DNA of 50,078 nucleotides from Candidatus Nitrosotalea bavarica (GTDB taxonomy: Archaea > Thermoproteota > Nitrososphaeria > Nitrososphaerales > Nitrosopumilaceae), in contig NZ_FUYK01000012.1 in the NCBI RefSeq assembly GCF_900167955.1, positions 1 through 50,078 of the forward strand. Direction: 5' to 3'. Within the stretch, counting starts at the first letter, position 1. The number at the start of each line of letters is the position of its first letter. Of this stretch, positions 40,039-49,642 are shown piece by piece. Position numbers and translations under genes: made by a program. Under the pieces are notes generated by a model that worked only from the letters and a program-made list of their open reading frames with translations, searched no databases and was not told where the DNA came from.

Positions 40039-40503
40039 ATGACCAAAAATTCAAGAATGAGGCATTTTTCTAATCATAGGGCACTAAGTTCGATAGTTAC
40101 TGGAATGATACTTCTTGTAACAACTGTTATTCTTGGCTCAGCAGTAGTCATGTGGTCTAGCGGTATCTTTTCAATATCAAAGTCAATTACAACTACACTT
40201 TATGCAACTAATGTAAATGAGTTTTCTGAAAAACTGGTGATAGAAAATGCGTGGTTTGGCAACACTCCATCGAAATTCATTAATGTTACGCTGTATAACG
40301 TTGGCTCAACAGGCATAACTATTACAGATATTAAAATTGAGAATTCTACACATGTGTCAGATATTTCTATTACAAATGGAAACATCCCTGCCCAGAAAAC
40401 AAATTCGACAAAAATACCTTACGGCTGGACAAGTAAAATTCCTCTGAGCATAATAGTAACTACCGCACGAGGTTCAGTCATTACTGATGATGTGTCTCCA
40501 TGA
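40039..40503 (+). CDS. small pilin-like protein with class III signal peptide
   Basis: A 154-residue protein. The N-terminus NHRALSSIVTGMILLVTTVI fits an archaeal class III signal (cleavage near the A-L/S site) followed by the hydrophobic pilin helix. The rest is a beta-rich Thr-rich domain with several N-x-S/T sites (NVT, NST). An ATG at 40057 is an alternative start. It is first of four such proteins in the locus. Confidence 0.8.
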   Translation: MTKNSRMRHFSNHRALSSIVTGMILLVTTVILGSAVVMWSSGIFSISKSITTTLYATNVNEFSEKLVIENAWFGNTPSKFINVTLYNVGSTGITITDIKIENSTHVSDISITNGNIPAQKTNSTKIPYGWTSKIPLSIIVTTARGSVITDDVSP

Positions 40504-40623: not shown

Positions 40624-42069
40624 ATGAGAAAGAGGGATAGAAATGAACCATTTAGATATTTCAATCGCTACAAAAAAGGAGTATCTACAGTAATTAGTGG
40701 AGTGATTTTACTTGTGGGCATTTCATTAATCGGCATTATTGGTGTTTCATGGGCCAAAGACAATCTCAATAACAATGAACAGATCATAGATGATACTTAT
40801 TCTACAAACATCAATAAAATTAAAGAATCCATCACTCCGCAACATGAATGGTACAATTCTGCACAAAAGCAACTTAATGTCACTTTTATTAACACGGGAA
40901 TTGATGGTCTCAATGTTACAGAAATAGAAATTAAAGGAATAAATCCATTGGATTTGCGAATGCCATCAACAGCGGTTCCACCTGGTGCAACCTTTTCTAA
41001 ATTAGTAAATTATAACTGGGCAGGAGATCCACTTGATATTTCCCTAATTACTAACCGTGGCTCAATTTTTACACATCACCTTGGCACACCTGCCGATGGT
41101 CAGTTGATAATCAATAAGATAGCAAGGCAGGCTGATGGCAACTTTACTTATTATGGTGATCTAGGTAATTTTGATATCTCGACTTCTGGTAGCCATAATA
41201 CTGTAACTCTTGATCAAAATGGCAATATGATCCTAACCGGTACGATTCACGATTTTAATGGTTCGGCATGGCCAGAAGGCGGCGATCCTGATTTTGAAAA
41301 AGTGTGTGGCTACTGCCCGTTTGGAGTAATTCCTGGCATTGTTATGCCAAATCTTGGTTCTGACGGAACCCCGGTATACAACAATCAAACCACATCTGCA
41401 TTTAACAATGGATTTGTGAGATATAACCAGTGGTATCATGATACCCCCGGTGTTAATGTGGAAAAACAATTGAATATTACATTGATTGAACAAGGAACCA
41501 ATCCTCAAACATGGAAGTATAGCAACATGTCATTCTTTCCCATAGATAATCAATTGTTTGGCAATAGTGGACAGGATGCAAATGGTAACTGGCATAATTT
41601 TGGATTTACATATGAGATCCACAGTTCGTTTACCTATCAAGGCGGTGAGACTTTTAATTTCTGGGGAGATGACGACTTGTGGGTTTTTGTCAACAAAAAA
41701 CTTGCTCTAGATTTAGGAGGAGTACATGCAGGAGCTGCAGGTACAATAAATTTGGATGCTCAAGCTAGTCAACTTGGGATCACACGAGGAAATGTGTATC
41801 CTTTTGACTTTTTTTATGCAGAACGTCATACAACAAGTTCTGAAATTCAGGTTTCAACATCCATAAAACTTGGAACCCCGGGAACAGGAAACTCGGGAGT
41901 ACTCTTTGTAGATCCTGGAAAATACACCATAGGTGAAGCTCCTACGCCTGGATGGACACTCCAGAGTGTTACATGTGATAACACCTATGCTCAGCCTAAT
42001 GCAACCGAAGTCACGGTAACGGTTCCTAAAGGAGTAACTACGTGCACATTTACAAATTTCCACAATTAA
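40624..42069 (+). CDS. modular pilin-like protein with fibro-slime (PA14-like) domain
   Basis: A 481-residue protein. Residues 17-43 hold a class III signal and pilin helix (KKG followed by VSTVISGVILLVGISLIGI). Residues 160-200 (QLIINKIARQADGNFTYYGD) start like a prealbumin/SpaA-like fold. Residues 205-415 match a fibro-slime domain: GTIHDFNG, FNNGFVRYNQWYHDTPGVN, SFFPIDN, FWGDDDLWVFVNKKLALDLG and FFYAERHT. Residues 425-481 (YTIGEAPTPGWTLQSVTCDN, then CTFTNFHN) resume the prealbumin-like fold. It is probably exported and assembled as a minor, adhesive subunit. Confidence 0.88.
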   Translation: MRKRDRNEPFRYFNRYKKGVSTVISGVILLVGISLIGIIGVSWAKDNLNNNEQIIDDTYSTNINKIKESITPQHEWYNSAQKQLNVTFINTGIDGLNVTEIEIKGINPLDLRMPSTAVPPGATFSKLVNYNWAGDPLDISLITNRGSIFTHHLGTPADGQLIINKIARQADGNFTYYGDLGNFDISTSGSHNTVTLDQNGNMILTGTIHDFNGSAWPEGGDPDFEKVCGYCPFGVIPGIVMPNLGSDGTPVYNNQTTSAFNNGFVRYNQWYHDTPGVNVEKQLNITLIEQGTNPQTWKYSNMSFFPIDNQLFGNSGQDANGNWHNFGFTYEIHSSFTYQGGETFNFWGDDDLWVFVNKKLALDLGGVHAGAAGTINLDAQASQLGITRGNVYPFDFFYAERHTTSSEIQVSTSIKLGTPGTGNSGVLFVDPGKYTIGEAPTPGWTLQSVTCDNTYAQPNATEVTVTVPKGVTTCTFTNFHN

Positions 42070-42234: not shown

Positions 42235-42324
42235 ATGAAGTTGGATGAAATGTCTTTAGATGACCATGTTAATTTCTATGAATTAGATTGCATCACATGT
42301 ACGGATGAATGGCATGAACAATAG
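42235..42324 (+). CDS. possible 29-residue CxxC peptide
   Basis: The frame starts MKLDEMSLDDHVNFYELDCI and ends TCTDEWHEQ, with CITC at 19-22. It overlaps the first codons of the next pilin gene in another frame. It is acidic, unlike random AT-rich sequence, but coding is not shown. Confidence 0.25.
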   Translation: MKLDEMSLDDHVNFYELDCITCTDEWHEQ

Positions 42325-43999
42325 AAGGGGTATAAGCACTGTAGTTGGAGCTGTTTTTTTCGTCATTATTTTCACAACTGCAGTAACTTTTGTTACTTAT
42401 GATATGAATTTACTAAATAATTTTACTAGTGCATTTGTAACAAAAAGTCAATCCGATGCCGATGCAAACCATGAAGAATTTTCAATAACCAAAGTAACAC
42501 TTGCTAACAACAAATTCAATATTACGGTTCAAAATTCTGGAAATATTCCAATAACTATTAACAGACTGTGGATTCAGAACAAAACTGATATCACTTGGGG
42601 TACTTCAAAATATGATATTAACCAAATTGTATACCCTGGAAATTCCCTTTCTGAGATAGGACAAAGCCTTCCACTTTATGCCAAACCAACTCAAGGATAT
42701 GACATTAAACTAGTTACAATGCGTGGAAATGTCAAGGAGTTTTTTGTAAACTCTGCAAGTCAAGCACCGGTATATTTGCAATTATTTGCATTGCCATCTA
42801 CTATCTCAAATAATTTTATCACCACTCTACTTCTTGGAGTAACAAATAACATGACAAATGGTGGCGCCCTCACCAATATTGTGCCAAATATGGCAGTTAG
42901 TAATGTGACAGGTTTTGGTAAAGCTACCCTGATTTCAGGTCCAACTCCATCTTCCTATCCACTTTTGAATGGCGGGGCTGAAACATTTTTTGAGTGGAAT
43001 TATAACATTAATGGTACTAATGGCTACACAGTTAATTTCAAAGCATCACTTCAAAATGGATATCTCTATAACAATGCTTCACAAAATGTCGTACTAAATA
43101 CAGCTACCATGGGAAATGTAGAAGCATATAGCACATATTCTACTAGCCATACTTTGTTATATACGGAAGATACTGTTAATTTCAATACTACCTCTGCAAC
43201 TACGGCTGCAACTTTGCCAACCTCGGTTGGACATACTGGTAAAACTTTCACTATAAGAGATGGTTCTGTTTCTGCTGGGAACCTTGTGAAAATCCTTACT
43301 ACATCTTCACAAACAATTGATGGATATTATTCTCCTTCTGGCTCTATGAATCTTACACATCAAGATCAAATCGTCAAGGTCATCAGTGACGGTTCCAACT
43401 GGAAAACAGTCGGATTCAATCCATCAGAACCAGTAGATTATTTCATGAGAGGGTCAACAACAGCATGGTATGGTAATGCAATACTCCCTACTAATTCAAG
43501 TATAATAATTTCAACACCGTCCACATTGAGAGCAACTCCTTGGGTCGTTCCGCATACAATAACAATTAATGAGATCCAGACAGAAATTTCTAGCCAAGCA
43601 AATCCTACAACTACAACATGTCATATAGGAATTTATCGAGATAATGGTAATGTATATCCTCAAACATTAGTTTCAGGAAGCGATGTTAACACATTTACAA
43701 CTACCACATCAGTTAAAACTTTGACATTTGGAACTCCAATCACACTTACTAAAGGACTCTATTGGCAAGCTTGGACTTGTGGTACGGCAGCAACAACTCA
43801 GCCGACTTTTAGAGCAAATACTGTAGACGTAATCCCGCCAGTGCTAGGTTATGTCAGCACAATGGGTGCAAAAGGATTTGGAACTGCATATACAGTGAAC
43901 TTTACTTATGGTTCATTACCGACTACGTATCCATCTGGTGCTACTATACTAACAGCTACACCCACACCTATGATTTTAGTAGAGATACAAAAAGGATAA
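42305..43999 (+). CDS. large pilin-like protein with phage tail-fibre-like modules
   Basis: A 564-residue protein. Residues 5-30 carry a class III signal with pilin helix (NRRGISTVVGAVFFVIIFTT). Residues 55-270 are Thr/Asn-rich beta domains. Residues 285-372 resemble phage and virus fibre modules (TLPTSVGHTGKTFTIRDGSV, then SSQTIDGYYSPSGSMNL and VISDGSNWKTVG). A second module, about 376-530, reads like tail-protein receptor domains (HIGIYRDNGNVYPQTLVSG, then LTKGLYWQAWTC). Many N-x-S/T sites suggest glycosylation. Probably a surface adhesin of the pilus. Confidence 0.82.
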   Translation: MNGMNNRRGISTVVGAVFFVIIFTTAVTFVTYDMNLLNNFTSAFVTKSQSDADANHEEFSITKVTLANNKFNITVQNSGNIPITINRLWIQNKTDITWGTSKYDINQIVYPGNSLSEIGQSLPLYAKPTQGYDIKLVTMRGNVKEFFVNSASQAPVYLQLFALPSTISNNFITTLLLGVTNNMTNGGALTNIVPNMAVSNVTGFGKATLISGPTPSSYPLLNGGAETFFEWNYNINGTNGYTVNFKASLQNGYLYNNASQNVVLNTATMGNVEAYSTYSTSHTLLYTEDTVNFNTTSATTAATLPTSVGHTGKTFTIRDGSVSAGNLVKILTTSSQTIDGYYSPSGSMNLTHQDQIVKVISDGSNWKTVGFNPSEPVDYFMRGSTTAWYGNAILPTNSSIIISTPSTLRATPWVVPHTITINEIQTEISSQANPTTTTCHIGIYRDNGNVYPQTLVSGSDVNTFTTTTSVKTLTFGTPITLTKGLYWQAWTCGTAATTQPTFRANTVDVIPPVLGYVSTMGAKGFGTAYTVNFTYGSLPTTYPSGATILTATPTPMILVEIQKG

Positions 44000-44725: not shown

Positions 44726-45736
44726 GTGAATATCAAAAACCTGCCTGACCAAAGGATGAAAGAAGTCACAAATTCAAAAATCCATGATGAGAATTTCACT
44801 CTGAATATTCATGTCTCTACGTTAAAAAAAAGCACACATGCCCTGTCTAAAAATTATGACATAAAAAAATACCTCGATCCAGAAAAATTCTCATTCTCGC
44901 CTGAAATATCTGAACTTATACCACGGGATACTCCTCCGTACCTTGATAATGGTGAAAAATACGTCGAACGAATTGCAAGAGCTTTATCATTTTTTAAACA
45001 ATGTGCGCTTATTGGACCCAGCGGTACTGGGAAAACCCATATTGTATATCTAGTAGCAGAGCTTGCTGGTCTTCCAATATGGGAGATCAACTGTGGTTTA
45101 CAAACATCAGTTTTTGATCTTTTTGGAAGATATGTTGGGCTGGGAAAAGAAAATTGGATTGATGGATTGATAACATCTTGGAGCCGATATGGGGGAATAT
45201 TGTATCTTGATGAAGCAAATATGATGAAGCAAGATATTGCTACAAGACTTAATCCTATTTTGGATCAACGAGGTCACATGGTTTTAACAGAAAAAGATAA
45301 TGAAATAATTCAACGTCATAAAGATGCTTTTTTAATAATCAGTATGAATCCAGTATCTTCTGAATTTGCAGGCACTAAACCAATAAACGCTGCAATGAGA
45401 AGGAGAATGAGTGTCTGGCTAAACTTTGACTATATGAGCGTGGGTTCAAAGATTGACGAAAAAGAGATAGATCTTTTAATTAGAAAAACCAATGGCTTGA
45501 GCAGACAAGATGCCGAAATAATAGTCAGAGTTGGTGCCGATCTACGAAAGCAATACAAATCAGGTGATCTTCCATATGGTCCCTCTGTAGGCGATCTATT
45601 GAACTGGGCATTACTAATTTCTGATGGTGCTTCACTAAAAGACGCTGCAGAAGAAACAATAATTTCACTCACTAGTGATGATATCGAAGTCCAAGGGATG
45701 GTAAGAAAGATAATTTGTAAAATAGCTGGAATCTGA
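44726..45736 (+). CDS. MoxR-family AAA+ ATPase
   Basis: A 336-residue ATPase with Walker A GPSGTGKT (97-104), Walker B ILYLDEANM (about 158-166), the MoxR-type INCGLQTSVFDLFGRYVG and sensor region IISMNPVSSEFAG, and arginine-rich RRRMSVWLNF. It fits the MoxR/NorQ/CbbQ group that work with VWA proteins to activate or remodel targets. GTG 44726 is used; ATG 44756 is an alternative. The stop overlaps the VWA start by one base. Confidence 0.88.
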   Translation: MNIKNLPDQRMKEVTNSKIHDENFTLNIHVSTLKKSTHALSKNYDIKKYLDPEKFSFSPEISELIPRDTPPYLDNGEKYVERIARALSFFKQCALIGPSGTGKTHIVYLVAELAGLPIWEINCGLQTSVFDLFGRYVGLGKENWIDGLITSWSRYGGILYLDEANMMKQDIATRLNPILDQRGHMVLTEKDNEIIQRHKDAFLIISMNPVSSEFAGTKPINAAMRRRMSVWLNFDYMSVGSKIDEKEIDLLIRKTNGLSRQDAEIIVRVGADLRKQYKSGDLPYGPSVGDLLNWALLISDGASLKDAAEETIISLTSDDIEVQGMVRKIICKIAGI

Positions 45737-47286
45737 TGAAAGACAAAAGACCCAGTTTTTTAGAATTATCTGAAGATATTTTTTACAATTTTTCTCAGAT
45801 AAAACCCGGTAGTCTAAATCTTGTTTTCTCAAAAAGGGCATTGTTTCCAGTTATGAAATATGGCTCTGAACCAGAAATTATTATTCCATTGCCAAGAAAG
45901 CGGGACAACAAATATCTGTTTGAAGGCATGTTATTTGATAGCGATTCAAATGGGAGAAGAAATCTTTGGTGCTTGTTTTTGGCAACAATCTATCACCTTG
46001 CAGCTCATGCCTGCGTTTCAAGATATTCGATATACGAGTCTTGGAAGAAATCCAAGACAGAAGATGTCTGTTTACGTGTAATAGACCATATCGAGGACAT
46101 TTCTGTTGAAAGATACATTTCTCATACTGATTCTGAGATTTGGGAAAATATGAAAAATATTGATCTTAAATTTATGTCTGAGACTCGAAAAAATTATTGT
46201 AATTCTTGGGATGAAGATTTGAAATTTTTTGGATTATCTAATAAAGAAAAAATTACCAAGATACGAACGAGTATGATAAATAAACAAGATGATGTCATAT
46301 TATTTGCAAATTTGCTTTATAAAAATAGGGGACTGTTACTCACAGAAATTCCTCCCTACTATGAAAGACACGATGTGAAACAAATACTGAAAACTGAACA
46401 ACAAAGTCCAGATTTTGAGCCACGTGGGTCATTCCAAGAAAATACGGTACAACTTGATGAACTGTGGTTAGCAGATGAACAATTCAAATCAAAATTGCTT
46501 AGAAGATACAAAAAGAATTTGAAAGATCTTAATTTTGGCACAATTACTATTCCACAAGGAAATTTCCATAATTTTTTGCAAATCAAAGAAAAAGTAGCCC
46601 CATTATTGAGGAGAGTTCGTCAACAGATACTAATGGTAGCAAACCATTTTGATGAACCAAAAATTGATGCGATGGGTTATCTGAACATGCAAATGGCAAT
46701 ACAATCTATTGCATCAGAAGGACAATGTGTTGATGTTTTTGAACGAGATGAAATAAGACGAGTTGAACAAGCATGGGTGATTTTGATAGATAATAGTGCA
46801 AGTATGAATTTGCGGTTTGAACAAATAAAAGAATTTACCGTTTGTATCGCTGAAGCAGCAAATGATCTTACAGAAAAATCTGATGCATGGGCATTATTTA
46901 GTTTTAGTAATGATTTACAAATCTTAAAAGATTTTGAAGAAAAATATGATCATGAAGTGCAAGCACGAATTGGTTCGTTAGAAAATAATGGATTGTCGTT
47001 ATTACCGGATGCGATAGAATTGGCTCGTAGGATGTTATTAGATGACTTACGAGAACGAAAGTATATTTTTATTATTACTGATGGGCATCCGTCAGGTTAT
47101 GAGAGAATAAATCAACATCTTGCTAAAATTGCCAAAAAACTTGATGCGTCGGGAGTGTCTTTAATTGCCATAGGTGTATCCAAACATACCTCAAAGCGTT
47201 TTAGAAATAGTATGCGTGGCTCCTCCAATCTTGGACAACTTGTAGCCAAGTTCATTACTGCCTACAAGACTGTCTCATCAGACTAG
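45736..47286 (+). CDS. VWA-domain protein, MoxR partner (NorD/CbbO-like)
   Basis: A 516-residue protein. A long helical N-terminal part (1-340) leads to a C-terminal VWA domain with an intact MIDAS (LIDNSASMNL, D352, S354 and S356) plus the FIITDGHPSG motif. This order matches NorD/CbbO-type partners of MoxR ATPases. The HLAAHACVSRY stretch (about 87-97) could hold a metal. It shares one base with the MoxR gene, so the two are a translated unit. Confidence 0.86.
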   Translation: MKDKRPSFLELSEDIFYNFSQIKPGSLNLVFSKRALFPVMKYGSEPEIIIPLPRKRDNKYLFEGMLFDSDSNGRRNLWCLFLATIYHLAAHACVSRYSIYESWKKSKTEDVCLRVIDHIEDISVERYISHTDSEIWENMKNIDLKFMSETRKNYCNSWDEDLKFFGLSNKEKITKIRTSMINKQDDVILFANLLYKNRGLLLTEIPPYYERHDVKQILKTEQQSPDFEPRGSFQENTVQLDELWLADEQFKSKLLRRYKKNLKDLNFGTITIPQGNFHNFLQIKEKVAPLLRRVRQQILMVANHFDEPKIDAMGYLNMQMAIQSIASEGQCVDVFERDEIRRVEQAWVILIDNSASMNLRFEQIKEFTVCIAEAANDLTEKSDAWALFSFSNDLQILKDFEEKYDHEVQARIGSLENNGLSLLPDAIELARRMLLDDLRERKYIFIITDGHPSGYERINQHLAKIAKKLDASGVSLIAIGVSKHTSKRFRNSMRGSSNLGQLVAKFITAYKTVSSD

Positions 47287-47343
47287 GTGTAAGTCAAAAT
47301 TACATGCTAGGTGAGATATTCTCCATTGACACACTTGCTAATA

Positions 47344-48039
47344 ATGAATATGTTCCTTAGAACAAAGAACAGAAAAGCAATCAGTGCTGTGCTTACTACA
47401 CTGATCATCTTAGTTGCGTCAGTCGTTCTTGGAACAGGTGTAGTACTATATGGTACAAGCCTATTCCAGACAGGTGCTCAATCATCCGGCGTCACAGCTC
47501 AAGGTGCTCATGTGTGGGTAAATGCCACTTCAGGTATCTCACCAACCTATGTGTGGGGCGCTGCAGAGGTTCGAAATAGTGGAGAAAAGATATTGTCTGT
47601 AGACCAGATTAGTGTACGTGGTAGTCAAATACCATTTGCAAACTGGTATTATGACAGTAATCCTACTAGAGTCACTACTGCAAACTTCCAGTCTCAGCTG
47701 AACTTTACTGGAACTGCAACAACTGCATACATTGCTGCCCATCCTGGTGTTACAAGTGGTATGATGCAAAGTTATGCTGCTGCTGCACCAAATGGATGTG
47801 CTATTAGTTCAACTCAATTTTACATCAATGAGTTTGGTCTATTAAGTACAAATCCAGCTATGTGCTTCACACAAGCATCCGGTCCAATTTCGTTGAAGCC
47901 AGGTGATAGAGTAGTGGTATACTTCCAAGTTCCAACCGGAATTTTTACTACGGTTGATGCTGGCTCACAAAGCAGTGTAGCAATCTACGCTGGCAGTGTA
48001 GGCGCACCACAATCAATCACTGTGGAAAGCAAATCCTAG
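47344..48039 (+). CDS. major pilin/archaellin-like protein
   Basis: From ATG 47344 the protein has 231 residues. The N-terminus NRKAISAVLTTLIILVASVV fits a class III signal peptide cut before or at the A-I/S site, with the hydrophobic assembly helix after it. The body is Ser/Thr/Ala-rich and low in charge, with regular G/A patterns like filament subunits, and it holds a pair of cysteines (CAISST and MCFTQ). The start upstream at 47311 (GTG) would add an odd leader. It directly precedes the assembly ATPase. Confidence 0.85.
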   Translation: MNMFLRTKNRKAISAVLTTLIILVASVVLGTGVVLYGTSLFQTGAQSSGVTAQGAHVWVNATSGISPTYVWGAAEVRNSGEKILSVDQISVRGSQIPFANWYYDSNPTRVTTANFQSQLNFTGTATTAYIAAHPGVTSGMMQSYAAAAPNGCAISSTQFYINEFGLLSTNPAMCFTQASGPISLKPGDRVVVYFQVPTGIFTTVDAGSQSSVAIYAGSVGAPQSITVESKS

Positions 48040-48091: not shown

Positions 48092-49642
48092 ATGAAAGAC
48101 AAATCAAAAAAATCCCAAGAAATTGAAACTTTTTTGGCAAGTCAAATCATGGATGAAGGACAAAGTCAAATTCCCTCGGGTTATGAAATTGTAAAAAAGT
48201 ATCCGTTACTGCCACCCTTTAGCTATGCAAATATCTTGTATAATACAGAAAAGTCTACCTATCTCTATTTTGTGGATGAACTACGCCTAAACAGAGAAGA
48301 TACAATGATCTTTCAAACGCTTTACAAACTCATTGAAGAAAGTCTAGAATCTCCATCCGAATCTGGGGGCAATCAAAATTTTGAAGGCCATCTCAATGCT
48401 ATTCTTAAGGAAAATGAGAAGATGTTTCTGAATCACTCTAGTATGAGTAGTATGGAGAAGGTAAAATATTATTTGAAACGTGACATCGTAGGGTTTGGTC
48501 TAATTGATCCACTGATGCATGACGTAAACATCGAGGACGTAAGCTGTAGTGGAACTGATAAACCAATTTTCATATGGCATAGAAATTATGATAGCATCCC
48601 AACAAATATTCAATATGCATCAAATGAACAATTGAATTCATTTGTTTCTCGAATTGTATTTCGAGCTGGAAAACACATCAGTACTGCATTCCCAATATCT
48701 GATTTGGCGTTACAGGGAAATCATAGAATCTCAGTTTTATATCAGAAGGAAGTTACACCAAAAGGAACAAGCTTTACAATAAGAAAATTCAGGGAAGATC
48801 CTTATACTGTAATTGACTTGATAAAATTTGGAACCATAAGCATATCAATTGCAGCGTATCTATGGATGCTAGTAGAAGCAAAACAGTCTTTTATAATAAT
48901 AGGCTCAACTGGTAGCGGAAAGACTACAATACTTAATGCAATTACAGGTCTTGTTCACCCTGATTACAAAATTTTCTCAGTAGAAGATGTTGCTGAAATT
49001 AATATCAATCATGAAAACTGGTTCACACTAGTTTCAAGAAGTGGGTTTGGCTTGAGTGGTGAAGGTGAAATTGGAATGTATGATTTGATTAAGGCAGGAG
49101 TACGACATAGGCCTGATTATATTGTAGTGGGTGAAATTAGAGGCTCTGAAGCATATGTGATGTTTCAGGCCATGGCTACAGGCCACGGTGGTTTGTGTAC
49201 AATGCATGCAGACGGGCTCGAATCTGCAATAAAAAGACTACAACAAAAGCCAATGGATATACCTCCTGCATATATCTCGCTAATGAACTGTGCAGTAGTC
49301 ATAAAAAGGGTAAAGGAAAATTCTACAGGGCAGAGCAGTAGAAGAGCTATTGCTGTATCGGAAATAATATCTTCCAACTCTTCATATCCAGCTTTTTCGT
49401 GGAACCCAAAAACAGATAATTTTGATGACAATCTAAAAGATAGTAATCTATTTAAAAAAATGGCAGATGCATCAGGTCGTGATCTCAATGAACTACTTGA
49501 AGAACATGAAAAAAGAATCATGATTCTCAAATGGATGCTTGAAAATGATATTCGAAATTATAAAAAAGTGGCCGAAGTAGTTGGGAAATATTATAGAGAC
49601 CCAGAATCATTATTACAAAAAATAGAATTAGGGAATGTCTAA
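48092..49642 (+). CDS. archaeal type IV pilus/archaellum assembly ATPase (GspE/TadA/ArlI-like)
   Basis: A 516-residue secretion ATPase. The N-terminal YPLLPPFSYANILYNT is typical of archaeal members; the C-terminal half has Walker A GSTGSGKT (271-278), the Asp box VEDVAEI, Walker B YIVVGEIRGSEA and the His box GHGGLCTMHADG. It powers filament growth at the cytoplasmic face. The start lies 52 bases after the pilin; the platform gene starts on the base after the stop. Confidence 0.93.
   Translation: MKDKSKKSQEIETFLASQIMDEGQSQIPSGYEIVKKYPLLPPFSYANILYNTEKSTYLYFVDELRLNREDTMIFQTLYKLIEESLESPSESGGNQNFEGHLNAILKENEKMFLNHSSMSSMEKVKYYLKRDIVGFGLIDPLMHDVNIEDVSCSGTDKPIFIWHRNYDSIPTNIQYASNEQLNSFVSRIVFRAGKHISTAFPISDLALQGNHRISVLYQKEVTPKGTSFTIRKFREDPYTVIDLIKFGTISISIAAYLWMLVEAKQSFIIIGSTGSGKTTILNAITGLVHPDYKIFSVEDVAEININHENWFTLVSRSGFGLSGEGEIGMYDLIKAGVRHRPDYIVVGEIRGSEAYVMFQAMATGHGGLCTMHADGLESAIKRLQQKPMDIPPAYISLMNCAVVIKRVKENSTGQSSRRAIAVSEIISSNSSYPAFSWNPKTDNFDDNLKDSNLFKKMADASGRDLNELLEEHEKRIMILKWMLENDIRNYKKVAEVVGKYYRDPESLLQKIELGNV

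Follow-up and report, generated by a model that had tools for sequence, protein, structure and literature searches.

The open reading frame at the center of this analysis encodes an archaeal type IV pilin that carries a fibro-slime domain, and the segments on either side of that domain match the two parts of a single SpaA_4 (prealbumin-like) domain. We consider it rather probable that the protein is a modular minor pilin of an adhesive type IV pilus, in which an isopeptide-clamped stalk holds out a Ca2+-dependent lectin, likely at the tip. The window, that is, the whole stretch of 50,078 nucleotides that was analyzed, makes up all of contig C6 of the soil ammonia oxidizer Candidatus Nitrosotalea bavarica (genome of 1.55 Mb in 19 contigs, 97% complete), and its relevant features are collected in Table 1. 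The domain content, the split SpaA_4 domain, its invariant triad, the gene context, and the selection described below are read directly from the sequence.

Table 1. Features of the pilus locus and of the fibro-slime pilin (nucleotide positions in the window; residue numbers are those of the encoded protein)
Feature	Position	Strand	Basis
Short pilin, class III signal HRA↓LSS, first of the three-pilin cassette	40039..40503	+	UpsA-like match, synteny
Fibro-slime pilin	40624..42069	+	ORF of 481 aa; TIGR02148, PA14, and SpaA_4 matches; ten orthologues aligned
Class III (archaeal type IV prepilin) signal, residues 1-19, predicted cleavage KKG↓VST	40624..40680	+	sequence
Pilin module, residues 20-156, hydrophobic helix and beta domain	40681..41091	+	identity to stand-alone pilins
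N-terminal half of split SpaA_4/prealbumin-like domain, residues 158-190	41095..41193	+	excision, hhalign, and sliding-block tests
Lys165, in the N-terminal SpaA_4 half	41116-41118	+
Fibro-slime/PA14 domain, residues about 200-416 (TIGR02148 core 324-416)	41221..41871	+	profiles, relatives
GDDD motif, residues 348-351, candidate PA14 Ca2+-binding Asp-Asp site	41665..41676	+	invariance
C-terminal half of split SpaA_4, residues 423-481	41890..42066	+	Pfam, hhalign, invariance
Glu438, Asn478, Cys451, and Cys474, in the C-terminal SpaA_4 half	41935-41937 (Glu438), 42055-42057 (Asn478)	+
Second modular pilin, RRG↓IST, conserved first ~256 aa and species-variable C-terminal head	42305..43999	+	alignment, family survey
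Variable head of second modular pilin	43073..43996	+	alignment
AAA_5 ATPase (CbbQ/NorQ/GvpN-like), conserved in the pilus locus	44726..45736	+	Pfam, synteny
VWA-domain protein, partner of the AAA ATPase	45736..47286	+	Pfam, synteny
Fourth pilin-like protein, RKA↓ISA, possible major pilin	47311..48039	+	motif, synteny
Type IV pilus assembly ATPase (T2SSE, PilB3-like C terminus)	48092..49642	+	profiles, co-occurrence
TadC/T2SSF membrane platform protein, start (contig ends)	49643..50078	+	identity to a relative

The N terminus is that of an archaeal prepilin. Residues 1-19 close with KKG and are followed by VSTVISGVILLVGISLIGIIGVSW, which together form a class III prepilin signal and a hydrophobic helix. 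The glycine of the signal (G19) is invariant in the ten-orthologue alignment, and the single-sequence AlphaFold2 model has an N-terminal helix from residue 8, with fair confidence at about residues 11-40. NCBIfam profiles give weak ArlF/UpsA pilin matches at the N terminus, and residues ~10-156 show 30-36% identity to stand-alone short pilins of 150-170 aa. Most of these stand-alone pilins match up to their own last residue, which corresponds to residue 156, so the sequence beyond this point is a graft on a complete pilin module. An insertion inside the pilin module was also considered, and it was ruled out because the pilin homology is unbroken to residue 156. An N-terminal pilin module followed by an extra module (here with the junction at 156) is what characterizes modular type IV pilins as described by Raynaud et al. 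(2021), and the class III signal and helix, the pilin homology, and the presence of T2SSE and T2SSF genes in the locus place the protein among the archaeal type IV pilins.

Within the graft, the fibro-slime model TIGR02148 matches residues 324-416 (model positions 2-90 of 90) at 118.1 bits, against a cut-off of 45, and the Pfam PA14 profile (PF07691) scores 34.3 bits against a cut-off of 24, over profile positions 42-133 of 147. Homology in relatives extends beyond the TIGR model to about residues 200-416, in line with the preliminary description, which had placed a fibro-slime domain at residues 205-415. All of the motifs quoted there are present in the open reading frame, and its reading of a class III signal and pilin helix joined to a fibro-slime domain between prealbumin-like halves stands. 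However, its view that such domains are known from Fibrobacter and slime molds was too narrow, with further occurrences in Eisenbacteria, in cyanobacteria, and, within other Nitrosopumilaceae, in secreted proteins that are not pilins. The same fusion does exist in other archaea: counting the sequence studied here there are ten orthologues (nine besides), restricted to ten sampled genomes, eight of Nitrosotalea and two of one sister genus. The nearest named relative among the loci fetched is a ‘Candidatus Nitrosotalea’ MAG, with 83% identity over the fibro-slime pilin. The whole-gene dN/dS of 0.12-0.19 indicates purifying selection; of four comparisons, three show a somewhat higher rate of evolution for the head than for the pilin module.

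Other members of the family have fibro-slime domains in secreted, mostly large proteins that lack a pilin module. Such large secreted proteins were seen in other Nitrosopumilaceae genera (L075, L077, L078, and L080), several of them with RTX-like GGNGDD repeats and one with two fibro-slime copies. The idea that the domain is a general archaeal trait was rejected, given that it was found in 11 of 398 genomes of the phylum, all from a single family. Scans of viral contigs for fibro-slime relatives returned one usable locus, which recurred (L109-L111), and nothing else.

The gene belongs to a cassette of three pilins, in which it lies between the two others in all loci read. The short pilin at 40039 shares about 30% identity with the pilin module of the protein at 40624, and the pilins at 40039, 40624, and 42305 were found together in six of six other loci examined. 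The cassette looks like a transferable unit; it is inverted near the machinery in one genome (G005) and sits at an unrelated locus, away from the machinery, in another (G073). In the Ca. Nitrosotalea MAG (L032:6590-8289), the second modular pilin is present as two ORFs, possibly owing to a frameshift or an assembly error.

Further downstream, the AAA_5/VWA pair (44726-47286) is kept inside the pilus locus, and the fourth pilin-like protein (47311-48039) matched no family above that family's own cut-off. Apart from the ATPase at 48092-49642, the genome has no clear non-archaellar type IV pilus ATPase. The other clear secretion ATPase is on contig C14, in an apparent archaellum locus with a putative prepilin peptidase nearby, and a third, weak match is on contig C15. 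The start of TadC that precedes the contig end is 98% identical over 145 aa to L083:14400-15866, itself PF00482-positive, and a full-length TadC is present downstream in a single-contig genome (G008).

The partner pilin was followed more widely. Of 200 genomes surveyed in the family, 81 encode its N-terminal 256 aa, in open frames that range from about 290 to 1100 aa, and the short pilin is directly upstream in all 14 of the further loci read. A scan of the variable head in the window against Pfam and PHROG gave no match; a LamG (concanavalin A-like) domain is present in five of the eight second modular pilins scanned from relatives. When only strong matches are counted across the 200 genomes, 44 have both the second modular pilin and the ATPase, 9 and 3 have one of the two, and 144 have neither. 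Thus, both occur in 44 of the 56 genomes having either (Fisher p 1.5e-31, relatedness ignored). The survey as a whole points to a family of such cassettes in AOA genomes, with heads swapped between species. The window (42305-43999) and loci L112-L128 illustrate how widespread the modular pilin family with exchanged heads is in Nitrosopumilaceae. Also, two archaeal modular pilins (L125:593-2521, 643 aa, and L126:1-2724, at least 908 aa) carry DUF2341, in the second case besides a weak LamG match; DUF2341 was associated with PilY-type tip adhesins by Makarova et al. (PMC4858521).

Based on the precedents among modular pilins and on this gene context, the fibro-slime pilin may reasonably be read as a dedicated adhesive tip subunit, and the pilins at 40039, 40624, and 42305 could form a minor-pilin complex at the pilus tip like that of S. 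sanguinis PilA/PilB/PilC. The same pilin and lectin might instead act as a decorating subunit of the filament body or of the cell envelope, so that adhesion would be achieved by many side-mounted lectins. The sequence would fit such a body position, or a role other than that of a lectin, as well. Raynaud et al. did not exclude a body location for modular pilins with flexible linkers, but their steric argument weighs against packing a bulky graft of 325 residues in the filament body, and the gene sits in a minor-pilin-like cassette, next to another large-headed pilin. Overall, we regard the body or envelope placement as unlikely.

The preliminary description had also taken the sequences before and after the fibro-slime domain as two halves of one prealbumin/SpaA-like domain. 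In the unedited protein, SpaA_4 (PF24514) matches at 33.4 bits (Pfam cut-off 27.3), over residues 387-478, a range that overlaps into the fibro-slime domain. By itself, the C-terminal half covers profile positions 46-105 at 34.7 bits, and the N-terminal segment (158-190) has no Pfam match. Once the insert is excised and residues 158-189 are fused to 421-481, the match becomes essentially full length (profile 2-105 of 107, 42.2 bits); placing a shuffled N-terminal half before the C-terminal half gives 35.2 bits, which is almost no gain. Excision in two divergent orthologues raised the scores from 30.9 to 45.1 bits and from 27.8 to 41.6 bits.

With a local SpaA HMM built from seven sequences, the gain on excision was weak, and 112 of 3000 random controls did equally well. 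Because this HMM is too weak for the scoring of single sequences, profile-profile alignment and a test of all possible blocks were used. In hhalign, the ten-orthologue profile was compared, unedited, with one built from seven uninterrupted SpaA_4 domains of archaea: residues 417-480 fall on columns 31-103, and a separate suboptimal alignment places residues 161-179 on columns 3-21, that is, on the absent start of SpaA_4. In the sliding-block test, every 32-column block of the protein (388 in all) was set before the C-terminal half. The top seven blocks begin at residues 158-164 and score 79-85, compared with a background of 69.5 ± 1.5 and 74.9 for the best clearly unrelated block.

K165, E438, N478, C451, and C474 are invariant in the ten orthologues, and the first three align with the Lys/Glu/Asn of uninterrupted SpaA_4 domains. 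Of the two invariant lysines in the protein, Lys165 alone lies outside the pilin module (and after residue 67). A 2025 survey predicted a Lys/Glu/Asn isopeptide triad for SpaA_4, placed the family in the CnaB-like group, and noted that disulfides are frequent in it and that such folds tolerate inserted adhesion domains (PMC12617251). At the level of profiles and alignments, then, a split SpaA_4 domain with an invariant triad is apparent, and we infer that the fibro-slime domain is nested in it.

Structure prediction added little to this. The single-sequence AlphaFold2 model has a mean pLDDT of 34, and modeling of residues 150-481 with five sequences gave a pTM of 0.55, in which the fibro-slime core alone is fair. 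The SpaA halves were poorly modeled with one or five sequences (pLDDT mostly below 40). Of the proposal of nested halves, the part that concerns sequence is borne out (the SpaA model matches above its cut-off, and the triad is invariant), but structure prediction gave the nesting no support, as AlphaFold2 left the SpaA halves unmodeled. A Foldseek search of the model against the PDB returned no significant match (best E 2.5e-3); the matches at probability 1.0, with E not significant, are to a yeast beta-glucosidase, a protein that has a PA14 domain. In sequence searches, neither the whole protein nor the excised SpaA domain nor the fibro-slime profile had a meaningful relative in the PDB.

An alternative to nesting is a tandem order of pilin, linker, fibro-slime domain, and truncated C-terminal SpaA-like module, in which residues 158-190 would be only a linker that resembles a SpaA strand. 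A fibro-slime domain followed by an apparently complete SpaA-like domain does occur in a non-pilin secreted protein of another Nitrosopumilaceae genome (G018), and the failure of Pfam to detect 158-190 alone and the weak gain with the local HMM are in keeping with such an order. However, the initial strands and the Lys typical of the SpaA_4 family are missing from the C-terminal half, the block scan picks out 158-164 among 388 positions, and K165 is both invariant and aligned to the family Lys. We consider the tandem order quite improbable.

The three aspartates of the GDDD motif are invariant in the ten orthologues and in the other fibro-slime domains compared. A D-cis-D pair mediates the binding of Ca2+ and sugar in the PA14 lectins of yeasts and of an RTX adhesin (PMC6650083, PMC6218569), and fibro-slime proteins of Fibrobacter have been implicated in cellulose adhesion, with antibodies that blocked 62% of adhesion according to work cited in PMC4668043. 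Given these two precedents, glycan binding by the fibro-slime head can fairly be inferred. A Sulfolobus bindosome-like system for substrate capture or of the envelope, in which sugar-binding proteins with class III signals serve uptake rather than adhesion, seems very improbable, despite a weak BasA match of the second modular pilin and literature reports of AOA pili related to Ups and Bas, because the cassette and its conserved flanks contain no recognizable sugar-uptake gene and the PA14/fibro-slime domains studied in Fibrobacter, yeasts, and RTX proteins are adhesins.

Returning to the nested tip adhesin, the following mechanism can be proposed. A prepilin peptidase would cut the pilin module, and the machine formed by the adjacent ATPase and TadC would assemble the subunit. 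The SpaA_4 (CnaB-type) stalk would be grafted to the end of the pilin module, with the PA14-type fibro-slime lectin inside one loop of the stalk. An isopeptide between Lys165 and Asn478, with Glu438 as catalyst, would join the stalk halves covalently across the inserted head, and Cys451 and Cys474 probably form a disulfide in the stalk, so that a pull on the bound head would not unravel it. Ca2+ at GDDD would let the head bind the glycans of cells or of polysaccharide surfaces. The isopeptide bond, Ca2+ and sugar binding, tip position, and adhesion are thus predicted properties of this pilin. We regard as evenly balanced the fuller reading of a PA14 lectin nested in a self-cross-linking CnaB-type stalk, which would act as a tip subunit with an isopeptide that spans the insert, convergent with RrgA/GBS104/Mfa5 and part of AOA cassettes with swappable heads.

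Of 18 papers that mention fibro-slime in the literature searched, none dealt with archaea by title or abstract, and a search that combined Thaumarchaeota, adhesion, and the PA14 domain found no papers. Nested tip adhesins are already known in bacteria (PMC7835359), and PA14 grafts on bacterial pilins were already listed in the modular pilin survey of Raynaud et al., which is based on the bacterial motif IPR012902 (PMC8179133). The combination of an archaeal pilin, a fibro-slime head, and a split isopeptide stalk appears to be new. For archaeal type IV pili, gene neighborhoods have so far been the main ground for proposing tip adhesins; here, domain content, an invariant triad, and a conserved cassette together provide a specific and testable candidate. 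If it is correct, two bacterial principles, modular pilins and a head nested in an isopeptide-clamped stalk, would extend to archaea, with a hint of how acid-soil ammonia oxidizers may attach to surfaces or other cells.

Among the closest known systems is S. sanguinis PilA/PilB/PilC, where a ConA-like lectin is found on PilC and a vWA module on PilB, and for which a minor-pilin complex at the tip has been argued (PMC8179133, PMC9934059). In both cases an adhesive module is grafted at the end of a pilin, there are one simple and two modular minor pilins, and a LamG/ConA-like lectin module occurs (here in heads of relatives of the partner pilin). The differences are that the S. sanguinis proteins have the bacterial N-methyl pilin motif, rather than the archaeal class III signal, and that no nested stalk or isopeptide domain is described for PilB and PilC.

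The predicted nesting resembles that of RrgA (S. pneumoniae), GBS104 (S. agalactiae), and Mfa5 (P. gingivalis), where an adhesive domain lies within a two-segment stalk domain and an isopeptide joins both stalk segments (PMC7835359), as is predicted here. Those proteins have a vWA head in a CnaA-like domain and belong to sortase or type V pili, whereas the present one is an archaeal type IV pilin whose fibro-slime/PA14 head would sit in a CnaB-like SpaA_4 domain, and as wholes they are not homologous. A head of the RrgA type (VWA with MIDAS) was looked for and no Pfam VWA match was found; as the head is fibro-slime/PA14, without VWA, the protein may work like this group but is not a member of it.

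Compared with other SpaA_4 (PF24514) isopeptide domains, the stalk has a full-profile match once the insert is removed, the Lys/Glu/Asn triad, and cysteines placed as for a disulfide, and it differs in that a domain of about 230 residues breaks it up. In the 2025 survey, the isopeptide domains of archaea were mainly DUF11, and recognized partner domains were rare among them (PMC12617251). Fibro-slime proteins of Fibrobacter succinogenes share TIGR02148, and cellulose adhesion has been proposed for them alongside type IV pili (PMC3079729, PMC4668043), but there the fibro-slime domain and the type IV pilin are separate proteins, whereas here they form a single polypeptide. Finally, the PA14 lectins of yeast flocculins and the Marinobacter RTX adhesin (PMC6218569, PMC6650083) resemble the head in the PA14 match and, as a candidate, in the Asp-Asp motif; the similarity is remote, and the Ca2+ and sugar binding shown for those lectins is predicted for the archaeal one.
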